Below, in pieces: positions 3,735 through 24,975 of a DNA stretch of 25,325 nt (positions are counted from its first letter, which is position 1; each line of letters begins with the position of its first letter). The notes under the pieces are model-generated. The model had not been told where the DNA came from, did no database searches, and saw only the letters and a list, made by a program, of their open reading frames with translations. The stretch is taken from assembly GCA_002712305.1 (NCBI GenBank), contig PATE01000026.1, positions 11,332-36,656 of the forward strand. Reading direction: 5' to 3'. The position numbers and the translations under genes are program-made. Source of the stretch: Gemmatimonadota bacterium (GTDB taxonomy: Bacteria > Latescibacterota > UBA2968 > UBA8231).

Positions 3735-4607
3735 TCAGCGCCAGAGAAGTTTCCTCGCTGTGGTTCCAAGAATGGCGGCCTTGTCCTGCGCACTCAGAAA
3801 GTCGGCGTGGCGCACCAGGTCGACACCTGCCAGGACCTCCGTGGGCGGGTCGTCCAGCTTCGATGGCCCACCACAGTCACTCTCCCACATGCAACGGTCG
3901 GCGCCAAAGGCTTTTACGACCTGGCGCAGCAGCACGGCGACCCCTGCAAAGGGTGCTTCCTCGTCGCTGAGTGCATGCACGGGGCCAAACTTCACGAACA
4001 CCTTCGGATGATCCGCCAGATCGACCAACTGCTGAAGATCGTCTGCGGCGACGGCGCCTTCCTTCATTCGCACACCGCCCACGTGATCGATGATCACGGC
4101 GGTCTGTGGGAACCGTTCGCACATACGTCCAATCTCCGGCAGATCCTCGGAGGCAGCGAGAAAAGACAGCACCAGGTCATCCTCGGCGGCGGTGGCGAAC
4201 ATGCGCTCGTAGCCGTCCTGATTCAGCCACTGATCGGGCTGCCCCCACTGGGGTTGGGCGGCACGGCTGCGAATGCGAAAGGCGCGGATTCCGCCCTTGG
4301 CCAGATCGCGCATGACACGATCAGGAGACCCCACCGACACATCGGAAACGGCGGGGATGATGCCCGTGCCCGTGAATAACTCAGGATCCGATCCGATGAG
4401 GTCGAGGATGTAGCTGTGATCGAGGCCATACCACGTCATCTGGATCAGATTGATCCCCGCCACTGCCTCACCGAACCGGCCGGTGTTGGTCCGGTGATCG
4501 TCCGGCGTATAGGAGGGCAACCACAGATCCGACGGTTCGAACCCCGGTGCCAACGGGTAATGCTCTACGTCGGGACTCCATACGTGGATGTGGGCATCGA
4601 CGATCAC
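3735..4607 (-). CDS. amidohydrolase family 2 (COG3618-type, lactonase-like)
   Basis: This 290-residue TIM-barrel metal hydrolase is related to 2-pyrone-4,6-dicarboxylate lactonase and L-fuconolactone hydrolase. It starts with the metal motif DAHIHVW (H6, H8). Other conserved positions are H175 (IIDHVGG) and D244 (MWESDCGG), the latter typical of the catalytic aspartate. It starts at GTG 4607, which gives the canonical MIVDAHIHVW N-terminus. It lies 10 nt downstream of the broken DUF1761 gene and is the last gene of a minus-strand cluster that also has Gfo/Idh and pterin dehydratase genes. Likely substrates are sugar or aromatic lactones, but decarboxylase members of the superfamily cannot be excluded. 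It converges on the DUF454 gene with about 50 nt between them and no obvious terminator hairpin. Confidence 0.88.
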   Translation of the reverse strand: MIVDAHIHVWSPDVEHYPLAPGFEPSDLWLPSYTPDDHRTNTGRFGEAVAGINLIQMTWYGLDHSYILDLIGSDPELFTGTGIIPAVSDVSVGSPDRVMRDLAKGGIRAFRIRSRAAQPQWGQPDQWLNQDGYERMFATAAEDDLVLSFLAASEDLPEIGRMCERFPQTAVIIDHVGGVRMKEGAVAADDLQQLVDLADHPKVFVKFGPVHALSDEEAPFAGVAVLLRQVVKAFGADRCMWESDCGGPSKLDDPPTEVLAGVDLVRHADFLSAQDKAAILGTTARKLLWR

Positions 4608-4617
4608 CGGACGCGAC

Positions 4618-5056
4618 CTACTGCCAGTAGGAGAGGATGAAGCTGAAGCTCAGCAGCCGCACCAGATCGAAGCTCGAATTGATCACCACGAGTCCCCACT
4701 TCCGCTGCTCCCAGGCGACGCGCTCGATCTGCAGGGGCAGGAAGAATCCCAACCATGTCCACAGGGCACTGTTGAGGGCATACACGGATGGGACATCGTC
4801 CATTCCCGCACCCCACGTCGAGGGTTACCACGCTTCGATGTTGTGGGCAAGGACGGTGGCGATGAGAAAGGATCCGAGGGCGTACAGTGCCATGGACTTC
4901 GCCATGGCGGCACCGCCGGGTTCCTCCATGTTCCAGACCCATGTGACGGGCCCAGGCTTTGCCGAACAGGGGTCCGAACCACAGAAACCCCACAGGCATG
5001 GCGGCAACGACACAAACGATGATCGTGGCGAAATTGACATTGATCTCTGGTTGCAT
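4618..5056 (-). pseudogene. DUF1761 family membrane protein, broken by a +1 shift and an in-frame stop
   Basis: Reading begins at ATG 5056, which has an excellent AGGAGG (5065-5070) 8 nt upstream. It gives a DUF1761 N-terminus with a membrane segment (TIIVCVVAAMPVGFLWFGPL) followed by FGKAWARHMGLE. The family sequence then continues in a different frame from about 4930 (MEEPGGAAMAKSMALYALGS, then IATVLAHNIEAW). This implies one extra base relative to an intact gene. That frame meets TAA at 4825-4827, after which homologous sequence resumes in the same frame (PSTWGAGMDD, ALWTWLGFFLPLQIERVAWE, FILSYWQ) to TAG at 4618. Rejoined, the product would be about 145 residues with four membrane segments, a normal DUF1761 length. 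The function of the family is unknown. Either a real pseudogene or a sequence error would fit. Confidence 0.82.
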
Positions 5057-5124
5057 GCGCCTTTCCTCCTCGTGGCGGGTCGCACCAGCGCCAATGATGG
5101 TGGATTCGTCTCAGGGCCGCAAAA

Positions 5125-9097: not shown

Positions 9098-11185
9098 TTA
9101 TCTGCGTCGCTGGGTCAGCTTGCGCGCAGCGATCCAAAGTCCCAGCAGGGGCCACATCAAACCGGCTCCCACATTCATGCCCATGTCCCGATTGCCCGTC
9201 AGGAGATTGGCCAGGTGGTCGGCGGTGGAATCATCGTTGACCAGATAGGTCCACGTAGAGGCCGGCCCACGCAGCCCTTCCTGTTCCAGATCGATGCCCG
9301 CCGGGCCCATCGGGACGGCCCGGAATGTTTCGATGATGGCCTCGTCGATGCGTGACGTGATCTCGTCGATCGGATTCAGACCTCCAAGACCGACCAGGTG
9401 TATCCCGTCCCTCAGCATGGCGATCTCGGCCAGATGGTCGCGCCACGCTGCGTCGAGGTGGTGGAGGGTGATGCGTTCGGCTTCGGCAACATCGGAGTGG
9501 CTGGCCACGCTGCAGTGGGAGGCATACGGGTCAGGCTCGTGTTCCTGCAGAAACTGGTTTTGTCCGGACAGAACCAGTTCGCGGCGCTCAAACAGTTGCC
9601 GCCTCTGTCCTTCGATGAACTGGCTGTAGCGCGACAAGGTCCGTCGAATCTCGAAACTCTGGCCTTCCACGATTCGCTGTGCACGATCGATTTCCCGCTG
9701 AAAGGCGGGGTGATCCAGCGGTTCGGTCCGCAGCGGACGCCGATACCTCTCGGGGATCAGTGAATCGATCCCATGTCGCTGGATCAGTGGATCTTCCAGA
9801 CTGATGTAGAATCGGGAGCTTCCGGAGTCGCCTTGACGACCCGCCCGGCCTCGGATCTGATCGTCGATTCGCCGACTCTCGTGTCGGTTCGTGCCGATCA
9901 CACAGAGTCCGCCCCGCGAGATCACTTCGACTCGTCGAGATTCGTCGCGCCCTCCGAGACGGATGTCGGTGCCGCGTCCAGCCATGTTGGTCGAAATCGT
10001 GATCGCTCCCGGAGCACCGGCCTCCTCGATCACCTCTGCTTCAGCAGCGTCGTTTCTGGCATTGAGGACCTCACACGAAAGGCCCACGCTCAACAGTCGG
10101 TTGCCGAGCTCTTCCGATTCGGCCACAGCGGCGGTGCCCGCCAACACGGGTCGCCCAGACCGATGGTTCTCGTGAATGCATTGGATGAGGGCCTCCAGCT
10201 TGGCCGTCCGATGGGTAAACACCACATCCGCCTGATCCACTCGCCCACAGGGTCGGTGCGGCGGGATGACCACCACGTTTAGCCCATACAATTCATCCAG
10301 TTCCTCAGCCGCCGGACAGGCGGTGGCCGTCATCCCGCTGACCTGGCCGTACTGCTCGAGGAAGTGCTGGAGGGTGATGAACCCCAGAATGGCGCCATCC
10401 TCTTTCCGATGGACCGACTCTTTCGCTTCCACCGCCGCCTGTAACCCATCGGGCCAGTGACGATCCTCTACAATGCGTCCGGTAAGCTCGTCGATGATCT
10501 CGATCTGATCGGCTCGCACGATGTAGTCCACGTCGGCTGTGAGCAGCACACGCGCATGAAGAGCCAGATTCACCTGTGTGAGTCGGTGGAGATGTTCTCG
10601 GTCATGCAGTGACGGGACGTTGAGAATCTGTTCCACGTGGGCCAGGCCCGCCTCCGTGAGGTGCACATTTCGCTGCGCCTCGTCCGACTCGAAGTGAACC
10701 TCCGGCGTCAGGCCTCGCACGATCTGAGCCATACGCCCCGGGTCGTCGTGGCTCGCCTCTACCGCGCCCGCAAGGACCAGTGGGATTCTGGCCTTGTCGA
10801 TGAGAATCGAATCGGCTTCGTCAACCAGGGCCCATCGAAACCCGCGATGGACACGATCTGCAGGATCGGTCACGCGTTGATCGCGCAGGAAATCGAATCC
10901 CGTCTCCTTCGCTGTGGCGTAGGTGATATCGCAGGCATAGGCAACTCGACGTGATTCGCTGGACATGCCCGCTTCGATTGCCCCGACGCTGAGTCCGAGA
11001 AAGCGATAGATGGGGCCCATCCACTGTGCATCGCGATGAGGCAGATAGTCGTTGAAGGTGAGCACGTGTACGCCCTGACCGCTCAGCGCACGAAAGGCGA
11101 CGGGGGCCACTGCAGCGAGGGTTTTGCCCTCGCCCGTCTGCATTTCGGCGATGTGGCCCTCATGCAGTGCGATGCCGGCGATCAT
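9098..11185 (-). CDS. SecA-like preprotein translocase ATPase (short paralogue), main open part
   Basis: From the internal ATG 11185 this frame encodes 695 residues of a SecA-type motor. Motifs: Walker A TGEGKT (17-22), FNDYLPHRDA, Walker B VDEADSILID (DEAD at 122-125), DVDYIV, AVEAKE, GMTATA (GMTGTA in housekeeping SecA), TNMAGRGTDIRLGG and IGTNRHESRRIDDQIRGRAGRQGD. The helical scaffold (DAAWRDHLAEIAMLRDGIHL) is kept, but the wing domain is short and the C-terminal zinc-binding CxC motif is absent. Instead the protein ends in a hydrophobic segment (AGLMWPLLGLWIAARK) with a basic tail, a possible membrane anchor. Family sequence (REVALRTLGLRLFDEQ) continues in frame upstream of 11185 without a start codon, so the true N-terminus lies further up and is broken. 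It is probably an accessory SecA, not the essential one. Confidence 0.85.
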   Translation of the reverse strand: MIAGIALHEGHIAEMQTGEGKTLAAVAPVAFRALSGQGVHVLTFNDYLPHRDAQWMGPIYRFLGLSVGAIEAGMSSESRRVAYACDITYATAKETGFDFLRDQRVTDPADRVHRGFRWALVDEADSILIDKARIPLVLAGAVEASHDDPGRMAQIVRGLTPEVHFESDEAQRNVHLTEAGLAHVEQILNVPSLHDREHLHRLTQVNLALHARVLLTADVDYIVRADQIEIIDELTGRIVEDRHWPDGLQAAVEAKESVHRKEDGAILGFITLQHFLEQYGQVSGMTATACPAAEELDELYGLNVVVIPPHRPCGRVDQADVVFTHRTAKLEALIQCIHENHRSGRPVLAGTAAVAESEELGNRLLSVGLSCEVLNARNDAAEAEVIEEAGAPGAITISTNMAGRGTDIRLGGRDESRRVEVISRGGLCVIGTNRHESRRIDDQIRGRAGRQGDSGSSRFYISLEDPLIQRHGIDSLIPERYRRPLRTEPLDHPAFQREIDRAQRIVEGQSFEIRRTLSRYSQFIEGQRRQLFERRELVLSGQNQFLQEHEPDPYASHCSVASHSDVAEAERITLHHLDAAWRDHLAEIAMLRDGIHLVGLGGLNPIDEITSRIDEAIIETFRAVPMGPAGIDLEQEGLRGPASTWTYLVNDDSTADHLANLLTGNRDMGMNVGAGLMWPLLGLWIAARKLTQRRR

Positions 11186-11448
11186 TTGCTCGTCGAAGAG
11201 TCGCAGCCCGAGCGTGCGCAGGGCGACCTCTCGAACCAGCGCAACAAACTCGGAAGGAAGATTGGTGTGTCGGTAACCGCGAAATAGCTCGACGATCTCC
11301 TGTGTGCCCGGTTCTGCAACTGCTCATCGGACAGGCCCGTCAGGGACGATTCCGCCTGGTAGATCCGATCGAGGCCCGCCTAGTAGGGGCGCAGATCGCG
11401 GATGATCGTCGAACCACGGATGCGTTTGAGAAGATGCTGAAGGTTCAA
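11186..11448 (-). pseudogene. broken 5' end of the SecA-like gene (in-frame TAG plus frameshift)
   Basis: TTG 11448, with GAGGA at 11453-11457, opens a frame with the usual SecA N-terminal helix (NLQHLLKRIRGSTIIRDLRPY). It stops at TAG 11380-11382 and then continues in frame as GLDRIYQAESSLTGLSDEQL, where SecA proteins have ALSDEEL. The family sequence then changes frame somewhere in 11290-11320 and continues as EIVELFRGYRH, LPSEFVALVREVALRTLGLR into the main frame at 11185. The change equals a one-base deletion. Repaired, the gene would span 9098-11448 and encode about 783 residues. In the main frame no ATG, GTG or TTG occurs between its TGA at 11324-11326 and ATG 11185. As it stands, translation could only start at 11185, which removes about 85 residues of the first nucleotide-binding fold. 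Confidence 0.78.
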
Positions 11449-11605
11449 TCGGTCCTCAGTGTGGACAGGCGGTACGATCGACAATTCAGCGGGTGCGCGG
11501 AAACCTACCGGTGGGGTAACAACAGTTGCAACCATCCCGCGCAGAGCCGCATTTCGCTTTCTTATCCGATGAGAATGACCCAACAACCGACCAGAGAGGA
11601 TTCAA

Positions 11606-17727: not shown

Positions 17728-18596
17728 TCAGGTGCCCAGTCGCGCTTTCTGCTCTTCCAGCATTCTGCGTTGCCGCAACTCGCGCTCGGGAACGATGCGC
17801 TCGCGTTCGCCCGTGATCCTGTAGTCGAGTTCATCGACGTCGAGGGCGTGTAACACGGCCTGCTCGACGAGGGTGTAGTTGCCGTCGGCCTGGTGGAACT
17901 GCATGGGCTCGACGAAGCTGACGGGAGGATTGGTGATGAAGCGAGCCCGTCCAGAGGGATTGCGCGATCCGGCGTGCAGCATATACGGGTGAATGAGCAG
18001 GACGTCACCTACGCGGCCCGTCACCTCGCCGAACTGTTGACAGTGTTTGATCTGCTCACCGAAGCGCGCATCCACCGGACGAAGACCCCCGGGGAATTTC
18101 TCCAGATAGCGGGCGATGGGTCCGAGGGAGTCGGGGGCGATGAAGGTTCCACCACTACGGGGGTCGATGTCAGACCACAGGACGATGGACAGCAGCCCCT
18201 GTTCGGGGCTGTCGAGGAAATGCCGGAACCAGTCCCCATCCTTGTGCCATCCCGGCGCCTCTGCCGAGGGCTCCTGCCAGTCCTGGTCGGCACCGACGTT
18301 GAAGTTGATGATGAATCCATCACCCCAGTGCAGGTCGCCTGCAATGTGCTCCTCTCCACTAGACAGGTCACAGATCGTCTCGAAGGCGCGCGGAGCGAAG
18401 GTCTTCACCTCGACCCGGTTCATCGTGGGCAGGTGGACAGCTCCTGATCCCAGGTTGAGGGATCCTCTGGATCGTAGCCGAGTCGCTCGAACGCCAGATC
18501 CCGCTACCGGTCGGCAGTCGCCCGATCGATACAATCGTCGAGACGCAAATACCCCTGTTCGATGAAATGGTCACGCTCGCTTGCAGAAAGTGCCAT
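17728..18596 (-). pseudogene. second phytanoyl-CoA dioxygenase family gene, broken near the 5' end
   Basis: ATG 18596, preceded by AGAGGA, opens the PhyH N-terminus MALSASERDHFIEQGYLRLD and reaches TAG at 18504-18506. The same frame continues after the stop as RDLAFERLGYDPEDPSTWDQE. Near 18441 the family sequence changes frame (AVHLPTMNRVEVKTFAPR), consistent with loss of one G from GAGGCT. The rest is open to 17728. It keeps the iron ligands: H and D of WHKDGDW (bases 18238-18246), the distal histidine in HPYMLHAGSRNP (codon at 17974-17976) and an arginine after it (SGRARF). Repaired, it would be about 289 residues, normal for PhyH. A start within the remaining frame (up to 18534) would have a non-family N-terminus. 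The enzyme core is intact, so decay looks recent or reflects sequence errors. Confidence 0.82.
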
Positions 18597-18709
18597 ATCG
18601 GGTCCTCTTCGGTGTCAGACATGAGACCGTTGGCTCAGAAGGCCAGGTCCGATTGGGCAGAAGCAAGTCTCTCAACATAGGTTGTGACAAACTCCATCCC
18701 GAGGTGACC

Positions 18710-19849
18710 ATGGACGTCCACGCGATTCGCGCCAGGATCCCCCTGACGCAAACCTGTCTCTACTTCAACACCGGTGGCATCTCACCCACGCTGGATGTGG
18801 TTCGCGACTCGCTCATCCACGACATCCGGGAGATCGGTGAGACAGGCCCGCCACCGATCATGCGGCCCGATGAGTATCATCAGCGACTGCAGAGTGCCCG
18901 TGAACGACTCGCCGATTTCTGCGGTGCCGAGCCAGAAAACCTGTGCCTCACGCGCGGAGTAGCGGATGGGGTGACGACGGTTTTCAATGGCCTGGATTGG
19001 CAGACCGGCGATGAACTGGTGCTCACCGACGAGGAACACCCCGCCGTCAGGATACCGGCCGATCGTTTGCCGGCAGGCCACGGTGTGAAGCTGAAGTATC
19101 TGCCCATCGACGGGTCTGCGGAGGAGGTCCTGTCGCGGTTGGAACAGATGATCACGTCGAAAACGAAGATGCTAGCCCTGAGCCATGTGACCACCGATAC
19201 GGGCACCCGCCTTCCCGCCAGGCAGATCGTCGAACTGGCTCACTCACGGAGCGTACCGGTGTTGTATGATGGGGCCCAGTCGCTGGGGCAGTTCCCGGTG
19301 GACGTGACCGATATTGGCGCCGACTTCTACAGCGCCCTCAGTTACAAGTGGATGTTCGGTCCCTACAGTGCCGGATGGCTCTACATTGATCCCGCCTGGC
19401 ATAATCGCCTCAAGGTGGTGCCATCCAGCGCCAACTACTTCGCCGATGACGGAATTCGAAGGTTCGAGTTCGTCACGATGCCCACCATCTACTACACGGC
19501 CAGTGCTGCTGGCACCGACTATCTGAGCGCAGTCGGAATCGACAAGATCGAGCAGCACACGGCGGATCTCGCAGGCCGACTACGGACGGGCCTGGCCGCG
19601 ATCCCAGGACTCGCCATCGAAAGCCCCTCCGAGCCCGGAATGAGCACAGGTGTCGTGGCCTTCCAGGTCGCCGGTTTCGAGGGACCCTACATCTCCACGC
19701 AGTTGCGGGAGCGACAGATCATCACGCGCCCAACCGGTCTGAAGTTCAGCGGTGTGCGCGTGTCGGTGGCGATGTTCACCACGGCGGCCGATGTAGATGC
19801 CGTGATCGGTGCCGTCGACGAGATCGTCCGAGCCGGGGCTCCGGCCTGA
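18710..19849 (+). CDS. aminotransferase class V family protein (PLP-dependent)
   Basis: This 379-residue fold-type I PLP enzyme is of the cysteine-desulfurase/isopenicillin-epimerase-like group. Visible are YFNTGGISP at the N-terminus, the ring-stacking region LTRGVADGVTTV, DEEHPAVRIP, SHVTTDTGTRLP, D187 in YDGAQSLGQFPVD (binds the pyridine nitrogen) and the Schiff-base lysine K213 in SYKWMFGPYSAGWLY. The start is ATG 18710, with GAGGTG at 18701-18706. The open frame begins at 18581 but its first 43 residues have no family similarity. Reactions in the family include desulfuration, epimerisation and transamination, so the substrate is open. It is followed after a single base by the esterase gene, so they are translated together. 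Confidence 0.92.
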   Translation: MDVHAIRARIPLTQTCLYFNTGGISPTLDVVRDSLIHDIREIGETGPPPIMRPDEYHQRLQSARERLADFCGAEPENLCLTRGVADGVTTVFNGLDWQTGDELVLTDEEHPAVRIPADRLPAGHGVKLKYLPIDGSAEEVLSRLEQMITSKTKMLALSHVTTDTGTRLPARQIVELAHSRSVPVLYDGAQSLGQFPVDVTDIGADFYSALSYKWMFGPYSAGWLYIDPAWHNRLKVVPSSANYFADDGIRRFEFVTMPTIYYTASAAGTDYLSAVGIDKIEQHTADLAGRLRTGLAAIPGLAIESPSEPGMSTGVVAFQVAGFEGPYISTQLRERQIITRPTGLKFSGVRVSVAMFTTAADVDAVIGAVDEIVRAGAPA

Positions 19850-19850
19850 C

Positions 19851-21143
19851 ATGTCGTCCCCAAATCAGATCAGCGACGACCAGATCACCCGAGACCGGGA
19901 AGACCCGACCTACCAGACCGGGGAAGACGCAGTCTTCAGCATCCAGCTGGGCCCCGACGCCGAGCGGGCCCACGTGTGTCTCAGCAACGATGGGTATCGC
20001 GTGCTCCTTCAGCAGCCCATCGACGCACACGCACGAATCGCCGGATCGCTGGAGACACCCGGCATTCTGCGGTGCCGTGTAAACTGGCTTCGCGACGGTG
20101 AGCCGCACTCGATGATCAGTGCCGCTGCATTCGATCCTTACCAGATCGAACCGACGACGACGGAGCCCGACGACTTCGACGCCTTCTGGCAACAGCAGAA
20201 GCAGGCGCTGGCCTCGGTTCCCATGGACGTCACCTTCACGGCAGATGCGTCCGATGCCACCGAAGAGGCCCTTGGCTTCGGCAAGGTCTCTCTGGCCAAC
20301 ATCGAGGACACCCGGGTGTATGGGTATTTCGCCCGACCAAGCACAGAGGGGCCATTTCCGGCGGTGCTGACGCTGCAGAATCACGGCGGAGGCGCCTGGA
20401 GTGTGCCGCGTGAGTGGGCCACAAACTTTGCTGAGCAGGGCTTTCTGTCGATGGCGATCAACACCCACGATGTGGACAATGGCCTCGAACAACGACGCTA
20501 CGACGACCTGAATCGGGGAGCTCTCGATAGCTACACGCTGCATGGCTTTCTGGACAGGGAGGATTACTACTTCAAGGCCGTGTATACCCGTCTTGTTCGG
20601 GCGATCGACTATCTCACCAACCTGTCCGAGTGGGACGGAAAGACCCTGATTCTCACCGGACGGAGCCAGGGAGGTGGGCTCACGTTGGTTGGGTCAGGTC
20701 TCGACGATCGCGTCACAGGTATGGTGTGCGCCGTGCCTGCCATGTGCGAGCACGGCGGTCACAAGTTCGGCCGACCTGCGGGATGGCCACGGTTTGTGCC
20801 CAACGACGAACACAACTACGGCAAAGGCTGGGAATATGCGGAGACCGGCAATGGGCACGGCCCCGTGAGCCGGCCCGTGTGGGAGGTATCCCGCTACTAC
20901 GACGCCGTGAATTTCGCCCGACGCATCTCGTGCCCTGCCGTCATCAACCTGGGCCTGATCGACACCTGTGTGCCACCGACGACCGTCTTCAGCGCCTTCC
21001 AGGTGATCAAGGGGGCCAAGACCGCCGTCGTCAGCCCCGATCTGGGACACGACGCCGACCGCAACCCAGCCTATCGTCGCGACGAGTTTATCCGCACGAT
21101 GGCCTCAGAGACGGGTTCGGTGGTGACGGCGCCGGACTCGTAG
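19851..21143 (+). CDS. acetylxylan esterase / cephalosporin-C deacetylase family alpha/beta hydrolase
   Basis: This 430-residue protein has an N-terminal beta-rich region of about 110 residues and then the AXE1-type catalytic domain (FDAFWQQQKQAL, YGYFARPSTEGPFPAVL, NHGGGAW). The catalytic triad is S272 in GRSQGG, D371 in GLIDTCVPP and H400 in DLGHDADR, which is the known order of this family. These enzymes remove acetyl groups from xylan, xylo-oligosaccharides and similar compounds. No signal peptide is visible, so it is likely cytosolic and acts on imported oligosaccharides. ATG 19851 follows the aminotransferase stop by one base. An in-frame ATG at 19809 would overlap the aminotransferase gene and is less likely. 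Confidence 0.92.
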   Translation: MSSPNQISDDQITRDREDPTYQTGEDAVFSIQLGPDAERAHVCLSNDGYRVLLQQPIDAHARIAGSLETPGILRCRVNWLRDGEPHSMISAAAFDPYQIEPTTTEPDDFDAFWQQQKQALASVPMDVTFTADASDATEEALGFGKVSLANIEDTRVYGYFARPSTEGPFPAVLTLQNHGGGAWSVPREWATNFAEQGFLSMAINTHDVDNGLEQRRYDDLNRGALDSYTLHGFLDREDYYFKAVYTRLVRAIDYLTNLSEWDGKTLILTGRSQGGGLTLVGSGLDDRVTGMVCAVPAMCEHGGHKFGRPAGWPRFVPNDEHNYGKGWEYAETGNGHGPVSRPVWEVSRYYDAVNFARRISCPAVINLGLIDTCVPPTTVFSAFQVIKGAKTAVVSPDLGHDADRNPAYRRDEFIRTMASETGSVVTAPDS

Positions 21144-21221: not shown

Positions 21222-21410
21222 TCAGCCACTGACCTGACCTTGTCGTGCATAGTCCACCGCTTCACCCAAAATTCGCGCCGCTACCTGCGGCGCGTGGAAA
21301 CCCATGTGTGCTCTTCATCCTTACGGTCCATGATGTTGCCGCAGTGCAGCCACGGCAAAACTCGCCAAAGCGGTGACGACAATGATGGCTGCAGCCGACT
21401 TCCCGGGCAT
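21222..21410 (-). pseudogene. nrfA: nrfA remnant: N-terminal anchor joined to the C-terminal end, heme region deleted
   Basis: ATG 21410, two bases after the nrfH stop, opens a signal/anchor sequence (MPGKSAAAIIVVTALASFAV, AAL). The reading then changes frame near 21341 and continues with [11 protein letters not shown], matching the NI-x-ERK-x-E pattern at the start of cytochrome c nitrite reductase. About 20 nt later a third frame (21305-21222) reads [20 protein letters not shown] and ends RQGQVSG and TGA. This matches the C-terminus of NrfA, including the distal histidine. Intact NrfA needs about 1.4 kb and has five heme-binding motifs. Here 189 nt remain and no CxxCH/CxxCK is left. The position directly after nrfH is the normal nrfHA order. 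Confidence 0.7.
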
Positions 21411-21412
21411 GT

Positions 21413-21924
21413 TTACCGTGATTCCCCTTCCAGTTCCAATGTTGTTTCGGGACCGCCAAGCCCCGCCTTCTCACCGTGGCCTACCGTCGCATGGCAGTGT
21501 ACGCAGCCCGGTGAGTCCTGATTTGAGACCAGCATGTCAGAGGTCATCGGCTCGTGACAGCCTAGGCAGTTGCGCTGCAGGATCTGACTGTTCTTGGAAT
21601 TGATGACGATGGGTTCGTGGAAATCCTGGAATGTGAACCCTTTGGAGTGGTAGTAGCCGTTTTCCGGCTTGGCCATGTACTTGGCGACGAAACTCTGAGG
21701 CAGATGGCAGTCGACGCAGCTCGCAACACCGTGATGGGAGGCTTTCTGCCACGAATCAAACTGCGGCTGCATGATGTGACAGTTCGTGCAAGCTCGTGGG
21801 TCCGTGCTGAAGTAGGACAGGCCCTCGGCATATTGGAGTGTGAAGATACCGAGGCCAGCCACAATCCCTATGCAGGCCAGGCCACGATCGCAAGTCGTTG
21901 CGGAGATTGTTCAGAAGGCGCCAT
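21413..21924 (-). pseudogene. nrfH: cytochrome c nitrite reductase small subunit NrfH, frameshift in the membrane anchor
   Basis: NrfH is a membrane-anchored tetraheme cytochrome that passes electrons from the quinol pool to NrfA, which reduces nitrite to ammonium. All four heme motifs are present: CTNCH, CVDCH, CLGCH and CVHCH, with family segments [28 protein letters not shown] and [12 protein letters not shown]. The N-terminal anchor ([18 protein letters not shown]) is in the heme frame, but the matching start, ATG 21924 ([15 protein letters not shown]), is in another. Joining them needs one extra C at about 21872-21876 (GGCCTG for GGCCCTG). In the heme frame the first start is GTG 21862, which loses half the anchor. 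Repaired length is about 170 residues. ATG 21924 overlaps the end of the TonB receptor gene by 14 nt. Confidence 0.88.
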
Positions 21925-24133
21925 TCACACCGATCACGAAGTTGCGGATGTCACCCAGGTTCCGCTCCAGCTGCGTGTAGTTGTAGTTCAGCACGTTGTT
22001 CACGCCTGCTGTGAACGACAGGCCAACCCATTGCACCTGGGCTCGGGCATTGAGTTCGTGTTGCGCCACACGCTGATCCCCGGAAAAGACCGATACCTGC
22101 TGGATTCTGCTTGTGTAGCGGTAGTCGAGACGGCTCGATACTCTGCCCAGGTGGAGAGACGGGTTCATCTGCAGGGTCCAGCGAGGGCGGTAGGCGAGGG
22201 GGCGCTTCAACTGCAGATCTTCAGAGTCGAGGAAGGTAAGTCCCGCGTCGACGTGTAGGCGCTGACGCCACAACCGCGTGCCTGTTGCCAACTCCACGCC
22301 GCGAATTCGCGCATCGTTGACATTCTGGAAACGAACGACGATGCGGGATGCCGTCTGCGCCAGATCGACGAGGGGTTCGACGAAGTCCCGGTAGTCATTC
22401 TGAAAAATCGCTGCATCGACGTAACTGTTGTCTCCCAGAGTCTGCCGTGCCCCGGCTTCGTACGACCAAGCACGCTCTGCATCGAGATGATCGCTGGAGA
22501 TGACTTGGAAGTTCCCGGTTTTGAAGCTCATTGAGCGTTCTGCGGTGGTAGGGACGCGGAAAGCGCGACCCGCCGACGCACGCAAAGACAGGCTCGACGT
22601 GGGCCTGAAGTTGAGGCCCAAGCGCGGCGACGCCTGCCGGTAGGCTTCCTGGTCATCCAAGTCATGTTGGTCGAATCGAAGCCCTGCCGTCAAGCGCAGA
22701 TTGTGACGAATTCGCCACTCGTCCTGGACAAAAGCTCCCAGGGCCACCTCCGTATGGCTGCCGTCGAAGAATCTGCCTTCCACCCGATGCACCTTGCCGT
22801 CCACACCCGCCGAGATGAAGTGGTTCGTTCGCGGCAGCCAGTCGAGCTGCACCTCCACGCCAGGGCCATGAGCCGGAGAGAACTCACCCCCTCGATCGAA
22901 CTGATTGCCCAGCATCGATCGAAGTAACGATGCGCGGACCCGCAGGTGCGATTGTGCCGACAAGGAGCGGGAATACTTCAGATACGTGTTGACCCATGCG
23001 ACCTTCAAGACGTTGCCCTGATCCTGTGAGAGCAATGGATGAAATAGTTGGGCCGGCGCAGAAGCGGCGGAGCCGTCCGTCGAATCAGGAACAAAGGGGG
23101 AACGCCACTGAAGGAAGACGCTTGAGTGATCACGCAGCCAGGCGGCGTAGAACTCGAGCTCAGACGCGTCGGCGAAATGACGCGAGATTTTGCCACTCAC
23201 GGTCCACTTGTTGAAGTCGCCGTCCTGCCGATCCCCTGTCGACGCATACCGGCTGGCGGCGATCCGGATTCCCGTTGGCCCGTAAGCCTTGCTGTAGCCC
23301 ACATCGAGGCGCTCGTAGTGCAGAGTACGGCCCGTCCAGATCCACTCCGATTCGGACGGATCGTCGTACATCCCTGCCGCGGAGCGGACCGAGAGCAGTC
23401 CGCGTTGAGAAGGCCGTCGAGTGATGACATTCACGACGCCGCCGATGGCGCCCGAACCCCACAGGGCTGAACCGGCGCCTTTGACGACCTCTACGCGTTC
23501 GACCTCGTGCAGGGGGATGATGTCCCAACTGATGCCGCCCGTGTCACTGGTGATCAGAGGCACACCATCCAGCAGCAGCATGACGCGATTGCCCGTATTG
23601 GCCCGATACCCGGTAGCGCCGCGGATGTTGATGTCATCCTCCATGAAGTAGACACCGGGCACCATCTCCAGCGCTTCGTCGAGGCGCAGGTTCGTGCGAT
23701 CGCTGATCTGTGCTTCACCCAGCACGGTGACACTCGTCGAAGATTCCTCGAGGGGTATGGCGCGCCGGTCAGCGGTGACAACGACGGGATTCAGCGAAAT
23801 GGACGCTTTCACCAGTGCGACGCGTATTTGTCCGGAATGAGGCAGATCGACGTCGACGAGATGTTCCCGGTAACCGATCATGCTGATGCGGATCTGGTGC
23901 AGTCCGGGGGGGACGCGAGCGACGATGAACTCGCCCTGTAGGTCGCTGATGGTGGCCAGCACGGTACCCAGGATCTGCACGTTTGCGCCCGCCATACGTT
24001 GACCCGAGGCGGCATCGACAACAACGCCCTGCAGCAGATTCTCGTCGGCCGACGCAACCTGGATCGGCAGCAGGGAGAGACAGGTCCACAGAACCACAGT
24101 CCGCCGGCCAAAGGCTTCTCGGAGACTCTTCAT
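21911..24133 (-). CDS. TonB-dependent outer-membrane receptor with N-terminal carboxypeptidase-like regulatory domain
   Basis: The 740-residue protein starts with a signal peptide (hydrophobic VVLWTCLSLLPIQVASA, cleavage near residue 28). A CarboxypepD-reg-like beta domain (about 33-110; LQGVVVDAASGQRMAGANVQ, DLQGEFIVARVPPG) follows. The plug domain (about 140-250) has LDEALEMVPGVY, INIRGATGYRANTGNRVML, LLDGVPLI and VERVEVVKGAGSALWGSGAIGGVVNVITR. The rest is a 22-strand-type barrel ending in an aromatic residue (NGAF). ATG 24133 overlaps the stop of the upstream lipoprotein gene (ATGA), which fixes the start; longer frames to 24283 are not family-like. It imports a ligand driven by TonB. No TonB box is clear and the ligand is unknown. 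The companion lipoprotein probably works with it at the surface. Confidence 0.95.
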   Translation of the reverse strand: MKSLREAFGRRTVVLWTCLSLLPIQVASADENLLQGVVVDAASGQRMAGANVQILGTVLATISDLQGEFIVARVPPGLHQIRISMIGYREHLVDVDLPHSGQIRVALVKASISLNPVVVTADRRAIPLEESSTSVTVLGEAQISDRTNLRLDEALEMVPGVYFMEDDINIRGATGYRANTGNRVMLLLDGVPLITSDTGGISWDIIPLHEVERVEVVKGAGSALWGSGAIGGVVNVITRRPSQRGLLSVRSAAGMYDDPSESEWIWTGRTLHYERLDVGYSKAYGPTGIRIAASRYASTGDRQDGDFNKWTVSGKISRHFADASELEFYAAWLRDHSSVFLQWRSPFVPDSTDGSAASAPAQLFHPLLSQDQGNVLKVAWVNTYLKYSRSLSAQSHLRVRASLLRSMLGNQFDRGGEFSPAHGPGVEVQLDWLPRTNHFISAGVDGKVHRVEGRFFDGSHTEVALGAFVQDEWRIRHNLRLTAGLRFDQHDLDDQEAYRQASPRLGLNFRPTSSLSLRASAGRAFRVPTTAERSMSFKTGNFQVISSDHLDAERAWSYEAGARQTLGDNSYVDAAIFQNDYRDFVEPLVDLAQTASRIVVRFQNVNDARIRGVELATGTRLWRQRLHVDAGLTFLDSEDLQLKRPLAYRPRWTLQMNPSLHLGRVSSRLDYRYTSRIQQVSVFSGDQRVAQHELNARAQVQWVGLSFTAGVNNVLNYNYTQLERNLGDIRNFVIGVNGAF

Positions 24134-24975
24134 TTCGCTAGCCCCAGATCGACGGTGATGTCCACATCGGCCACCGTGTCGCCCAAGGCGACGGTTACTT
24201 CGGCCGGCTCGCCTGAACCGGGGCTCGTTTCGTAGAAACCGATCTCTTTGAAGTCGAAGACACTGGCACCTCGGCCCAACCACAGCACGACCGTGTATTC
24301 GTAGGTCCCCGGTGGTGTCGCCAACCGGTAGTCAAACTCGTCGACCTGGGTAGGCAGGGAGATGTTCAGGGCGGCGGGGCGGAAGAACTCGAGCAGATTC
24401 TCTGGCCGCGTCCGGTAGGCTGCGATGCCCATCAGTTCGGTGTTGTCTGGCCAATTGCCTTCGTAGGTAATGCGACCGCCGAGGACGGCACCTCGATCGA
24501 CAGCCGAAAAGTCCGCCGTCACATCAACGTCTTCCACCACCGGCGCATCTGCGGTGACGTGCACCGTGTCGGGGAAGGAGATGCCGCCGGTGAAGGAGGC
24601 GCCATAGAGGCCGAGTACATCCGACCAGATCACCGGTTCGTCGATGGCTTTCCACACCACGGCGATGGCCGCATAACTACCGAGACTGGGAACTTTGATC
24701 TCGTAGTCGGCACTCCCCGCGTTGAAGTTGAGGCGGGCACTTTGCGACAGGGCCAACTGAACCACGTCGGATGGTGGAAAGTCACGCGATGCGACGACGA
24801 CGACCCAATGCGTGTTGGCTGGCGGATCTCCCTCGAAGGTGATCGTGCCGCGGATGGCCGGCACACCGACCTGAGGTTCGATGCCCTGGTCGACGGAACA
24901 GGTGGCCACCGCCATCGCCGCAAGCGACACGAGCGCAAGACGGACGATATGCTGAGCATGGAAATCCATCATCAT
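24130..24975 (-). CDS. two-repeat lipoprotein, likely partner of the TonB-dependent receptor
   Basis: This 281-residue protein begins with a signal peptide ([14 protein letters not shown]) and a lipobox ending at C26 (VATC), so it is probably lipid-anchored. The rest consists of two similar beta-rich repeats, about residues 43-156 and 167-278. Each starts with a G-x-I-T-[FY]-E-G segment ([26 protein letters not shown]), contains a hydrophobic strand run and ends with V-x-D-V-D-[VI]-T. I do not recognise a family. The genes on both sides overlap it by ATGA (pdxA stop at 24972-24974; TonB receptor start at 24133), so translation is probably coupled. Surface ligand binding for the receptor is an inference from this arrangement only. 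Confidence 0.85.

Follow-up and report, generated by a model that had tools for sequence, protein, structure and literature searches.

The minus strand of the window (the whole stretch of 25,325 nucleotides analysed here) carries, at positions 21924-21199, a broken nrfHA locus that is very probably the pseudogene of a formerly working operon, in which frameshifts and an internal deletion of about 1.2 kb would have built up once the need for nitrite respiration had ended and purifying selection had lapsed. NrfHA consists of the membrane protein NrfH, a four-haem quinol dehydrogenase subunit, and NrfA, the pentahaem ammonia-forming nitrite reductase. With no NrfA haem site left and the anchor reading of NrfH lost, the remains, as read from their sequence, cannot make a nitrite reductase.

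The nrfHA locus and its intact counterpart

The locus lies on a 62-kb contig (C47) of a draft genome of 4.77 Mb (G000; 146 contigs, 90.9% complete). The single other member of the genus compared, Gemmatimonadetes bacterium SI074_bin69 (G001, hereafter the sister; locus L022, JABJJN010000089.1), is collinear with nearly the whole window. Its nrfHA is intact, specifies a NrfA of 472 amino acids with five CXXCH motifs, and matches PF02335 at 408 bits and NF008339 with E = 7e-80. The sister's operon is flanked by the same two genes as the window's remnant, namely an intact TonB-dependent receptor gene upstream (21911-24283, minus strand; Pfam PF00593 and PF07715) and, downstream, an intact and convergent gene for an acetyl xylan esterase-like hydrolase (AXE1; 19809-21143, plus strand; Pfam PF05448). 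The intact operon that the first-pass annotation had proposed to look for in sister genomes is thus found between the same neighbours. Window and sister are about 73% identical in DNA, so the exact bases of the indels and of the deletion junction described below are uncertain.

The nrfH pseudogene (21924-21413, minus strand) is 79.7% identical to the sister's intact NrfH and retains all four CXXCH motifs; its frame from 21862 to 21413 scores 151.1 bits against the NCBI equivalog TIGR03153 (cut-off 134.2). The probable start, an ATG at 21924-21922, lies within the last part of the TonB-receptor gene. Reading from this codon leads to an in-frame TAG at 21870-21868, and the remainder of the protein lies in another frame. 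A one-base deletion in the anchor, claimed from the outset, is confirmed by the change of frame between AIVAW and CIGIVAGLG and by the sister alignment, which places it at 21884-21874 on the minus strand (exact base uncertain). With the frame changing inside the anchor, no uninterrupted frame with an N-terminal membrane anchor was found for the window's nrfH. A length difference of about 31 nt at the 5' end was dropped as a candidate lesion, since the probable start lies inside the TonB-receptor gene and the difference may be natural variation.

What is left of nrfA is its two ends. The first remnant, on the minus strand at 21410-21306, is the membrane anchor; it begins at 21410 with MPGKSAAAIIVVTALASFAVAAL and continues for 10 residues in a second frame. 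It matches the sister's NrfA by tblastn in pieces in two frames, and the identity amounts to 80.6% over 31 residues when the query is read across the frameshift. The frame shifts near 21342, at a 2-nt deletion (21344-21340, minus strand) where the window reads GCACTG--CGGCAAC and the sister GCATTGCTCGTCAAT. The deletion junction follows at 21310-21305 on the same strand. Alignment by blastn against L022 breaks at window 21310/21305 and at L022 6552/7755, and the sister's nrfA sequence shows about 1,202 nt to be gone (L022 6553-7754), all five CXXCH haem sites of NrfA included. The second remnant (21305-21222, minus strand) is the C-terminal MGFHAPQ helix, with a weak match to Pfam PF02335. It is 86% identical to residues 437-464 of the sister's NrfA (E = 2.5e-8 in a genome-wide search) and agrees with intact NrfA proteins at 24 of 26 residues, so that the match is not a chance one. 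The first-pass annotation had described an nrfA cut down to its two ends, devoid of catalytic haem motifs, with about 1.2 kb deleted at this very junction and a C-terminal segment that should align with NrfA; each of these points was borne out by the comparison. It had missed a further 1-nt deletion near 21227, which creates an early stop at 21224-21222. Past this stop, the original nrfA frame (LNWQVAQR*, with TAG at 21201-21199) still matches the sister's tail. Relative to the sister, therefore, the locus carries four lesions, a 1-nt deletion in nrfH and deletions of 2 nt, about 1.2 kb and 1 nt in nrfA, the large scar being flanked on both sides by the smaller frame-breaking nrfA deletions. 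No clear direct repeat (microhomology) is recoverable at the junction at this divergence from the sister.

The gene order nrfH-nrfA, a NrfH with four CXXCH motifs, and an NrfA anchor and C-terminal MGFHAPQ helix are all features of NrfHA (TIGR03153; PF02335/NF008339). Unlike a working NrfHA, the window's version has an nrfA from which residues ~36-436 (sister numbering), and with them the five haem sites and the catalytic core, have been deleted, as well as a frameshifted nrfH.

Timing of the inactivation and alternative readings

Window and sister nrfH differ at 58% of third codon positions, compared with 18% of first and 13% of second ones, and the nrfA remnants show 12 differences at first or second positions versus 29 at third positions (p = 1e-6 against an even spread). 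On the NrfH tree, the branch lengths are 0.18 for the window and 0.22 for the sister. The dominance of third-position changes, combined with a window branch no longer than the sister's, indicates that most of the divergence arose under selection and that the genes were inactivated only late in the period since the split. These sequence comparisons thus support a loss of nrfHA that is recent only relative to the separation from the sister. The first-pass annotation had called the loss of respiratory ammonification recent, which holds in this relative sense and not in absolute terms. Its description of the junction as a datable scar is not supported, given the level of third-position change, the overall DNA identity to the sister and the lack of a close strain among the genomes compared.

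As the cause we infer a relaxation of selection for anaerobic nitrogen-oxide respiration, with the following order of events: a lineage that stopped needing nitrite respiration would have ceased to keep nrfHA under purifying selection, after which the frameshifts and the 1.2-kb deletion could pile up. That the organism instead has an intact nrfA, whose two ends were joined by the assembler or whose sequence was blurred by a mixture of strains, with sequencing errors posing as small indels, appears very unlikely. The genome is indeed a draft, and nrfA can assemble badly, as in another genome of the same family (G010), in which a scaffold gap of 100 N (L016 2139-2238) falls in mid-nrfA; this assembly gap was not counted as a fourth internal nrfA deletion. 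The window's junction, however, shows neither a run of N nor a repeat, no other part of the assembly contains the missing 1.2 kb, small frame-breaking lesions flank the scar and also affect nrfH, and the same kind of nrfHA wreck is present in three other assemblies. Moreover, when the 62-kb contig was compared with the sister (about 42 orthologues), lesions clustered in nrfH/nrfA, in a PhyH and a DUF1761 gene and at the 5' end of a secA2-like gene, other genes being clean. Such clustering in a few loci disfavours random sequencing error, since errors would spread out. Most of the damaged loci on the contig carry more than one lesion, and some of the lesions, in broken genes other than nrfHA, are nonsense substitutions rather than indels, which also speaks against an artefact. 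In the reverse comparison, a clear internal stop was seen in 1 of 41 sister genes. Internal-stop counts in stop-to-stop frames were rejected as a measure of lesions, most of these stops lying upstream of the real starts when checked one by one.

Less probable still is a live remnant in which NrfH, in the absence of NrfA, is translated from another start codon such as GTG 21862 and passes electrons to some other partner. The intact haem motifs of NrfH and its score above the family cut-off would fit such a role, as would the predominance of third-position changes in nrfH (88 versus 48 at positions 1 and 2 together). But the conservation is accounted for by selection before inactivation, the open part begins within the anchor helix, without its N-terminal half, and the window's genome holds no second NrfA. 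The share of changes falling at positions 1 and 2 is also higher on the window's branch than on the sister's (20/46 versus 13/46), a difference that is not significant (p = 0.19).

Three further genes of the window appear to be broken. The secA2-like gene (9098-11450, minus strand) matches TIGR04221 at 732.5 bits (cut-off 725); its 5' part is broken relative to the sister by a TAG in frame near 11382 and by a shift of frame somewhere between 11305 and 11263, and an N-truncated frame of 695 amino acids stays open from ATG 11185. In the gene for a PhyH-family dioxygenase (17728-18600, minus strand), a tryptophan codon has become TAG near 18505 and a frameshift is found near 18430; the sister's frame is intact (346 aa). 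The DUF1761 gene (4604-5090, minus strand) is shifted out of frame at 4931/4932 and also contains a nonsense codon (HNIEAW*PSTW), the corresponding sister frame of 178 aa being intact.

Nitrogen-oxide respiration in the two genomes

Searching the window's genome revealed no second nrfA. The sole other match to PF02335 (contig C133) was rejected as an nrfA: it covers only positions 237-291 of the family and lies in a 587-aa multihaem frame. Full NapA, NarG, NirK and NosZ were likewise not found in this genome, absences that may in part reflect contigs missing from a 90.9% complete draft. In the sister, NapA, NirK and NrfHA score above curated cut-offs, and a full-length NosZ scores 478 bits, below its cut-off. 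Missing contigs could account for one absent gene, hardly for all. These patterns of gene content suggest that the window's lineage has probably undergone a wider loss of nitrogen-oxide respiration, of which nrfHA would be the last visible wreck. The loss of respiratory ammonification, initially proposed from the locus itself, fits the absence of napA, narG, nirK and nosZ.

The window's nrfHA is a case of ordinary gene decay. It resembles bacterial respiratory pseudogenes left after the loss of an anaerobic pathway in having an intact sister orthologue, several independent lesions, and pathway partners that are absent too. There is no difference in kind from such pseudogenes; here the lineage is an uncultured one, and a single family shows such decay in three or more of its lineages. 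Nothing on point was found in the literature on nrfA pseudogenes or on this family. The new elements here are a comparison with the sister, the loss of the remaining pathway, and evidence that decay recurred within the family.

Broken nrfHA loci in the family

Of the 25 genomes of the family surveyed, nine lack nrfHA, four carry a visibly broken copy and several an intact one. Besides the window's locus, the broken ones are those of G012 and of G007 and G019, which represent two genera other than the window's. In G012 (L017 800-1850), NrfH is interrupted by a TAG, the NrfA anchor is joined to residue ~330 of the protein, and a frameshift is present. G007 and G019 (L021 1480-2260 and L020) have three defects of NrfH in common, namely a TGA, a frameshift and the loss of two haem cysteines; of their nrfA there remain only the anchor, two inner stretches (residues 104-124 and 287-~330) and the extreme end. 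Microhomology in the form of a short shared stretch is plausible only at a single G007 junction. In the NrfH tree, broken and intact loci pair with good support (window with G001, 97/89; G012 with G005, 95/90), and supported branches require three separate changes, in the window's genome, in G012 and in G007/G019. It thus seems likely that nrfHA has been destroyed convergently within one family, in at least these three pseudogenisations, through nrfH frameshifts or stops and internal nrfA deletions, with operons left intact in sisters and the remaining nitrogen-oxide respiration lost as well.

The NrfH of another genus, g4 (G008 L007 and G004 L012), falls together with a Phycisphaeraceae sequence, L041 (100/99), apart from the NrfH of the window's genus. 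This grouping of sequences suggests a transfer of nrfHA between phyla.

In the lineage represented by the window, respiratory ammonification appears to have been lost, whereas the sister in the same genus retains nrfHA, nap, nirK and nosZ. Surveys based on marker genes would be misled by such a locus, since its nrfH passes the family cut-off though no working enzyme is predicted from the remains. The recurrence of decay among members of the family identifies nitrite ammonification as a trait that is easily lost, and several independent losses of nrfHA provide replicates for studying the cause of the loss. If convergent destruction is the correct interpretation, the family would constitute a natural series in which the loss of ammonification may be dated and its steps ordered.
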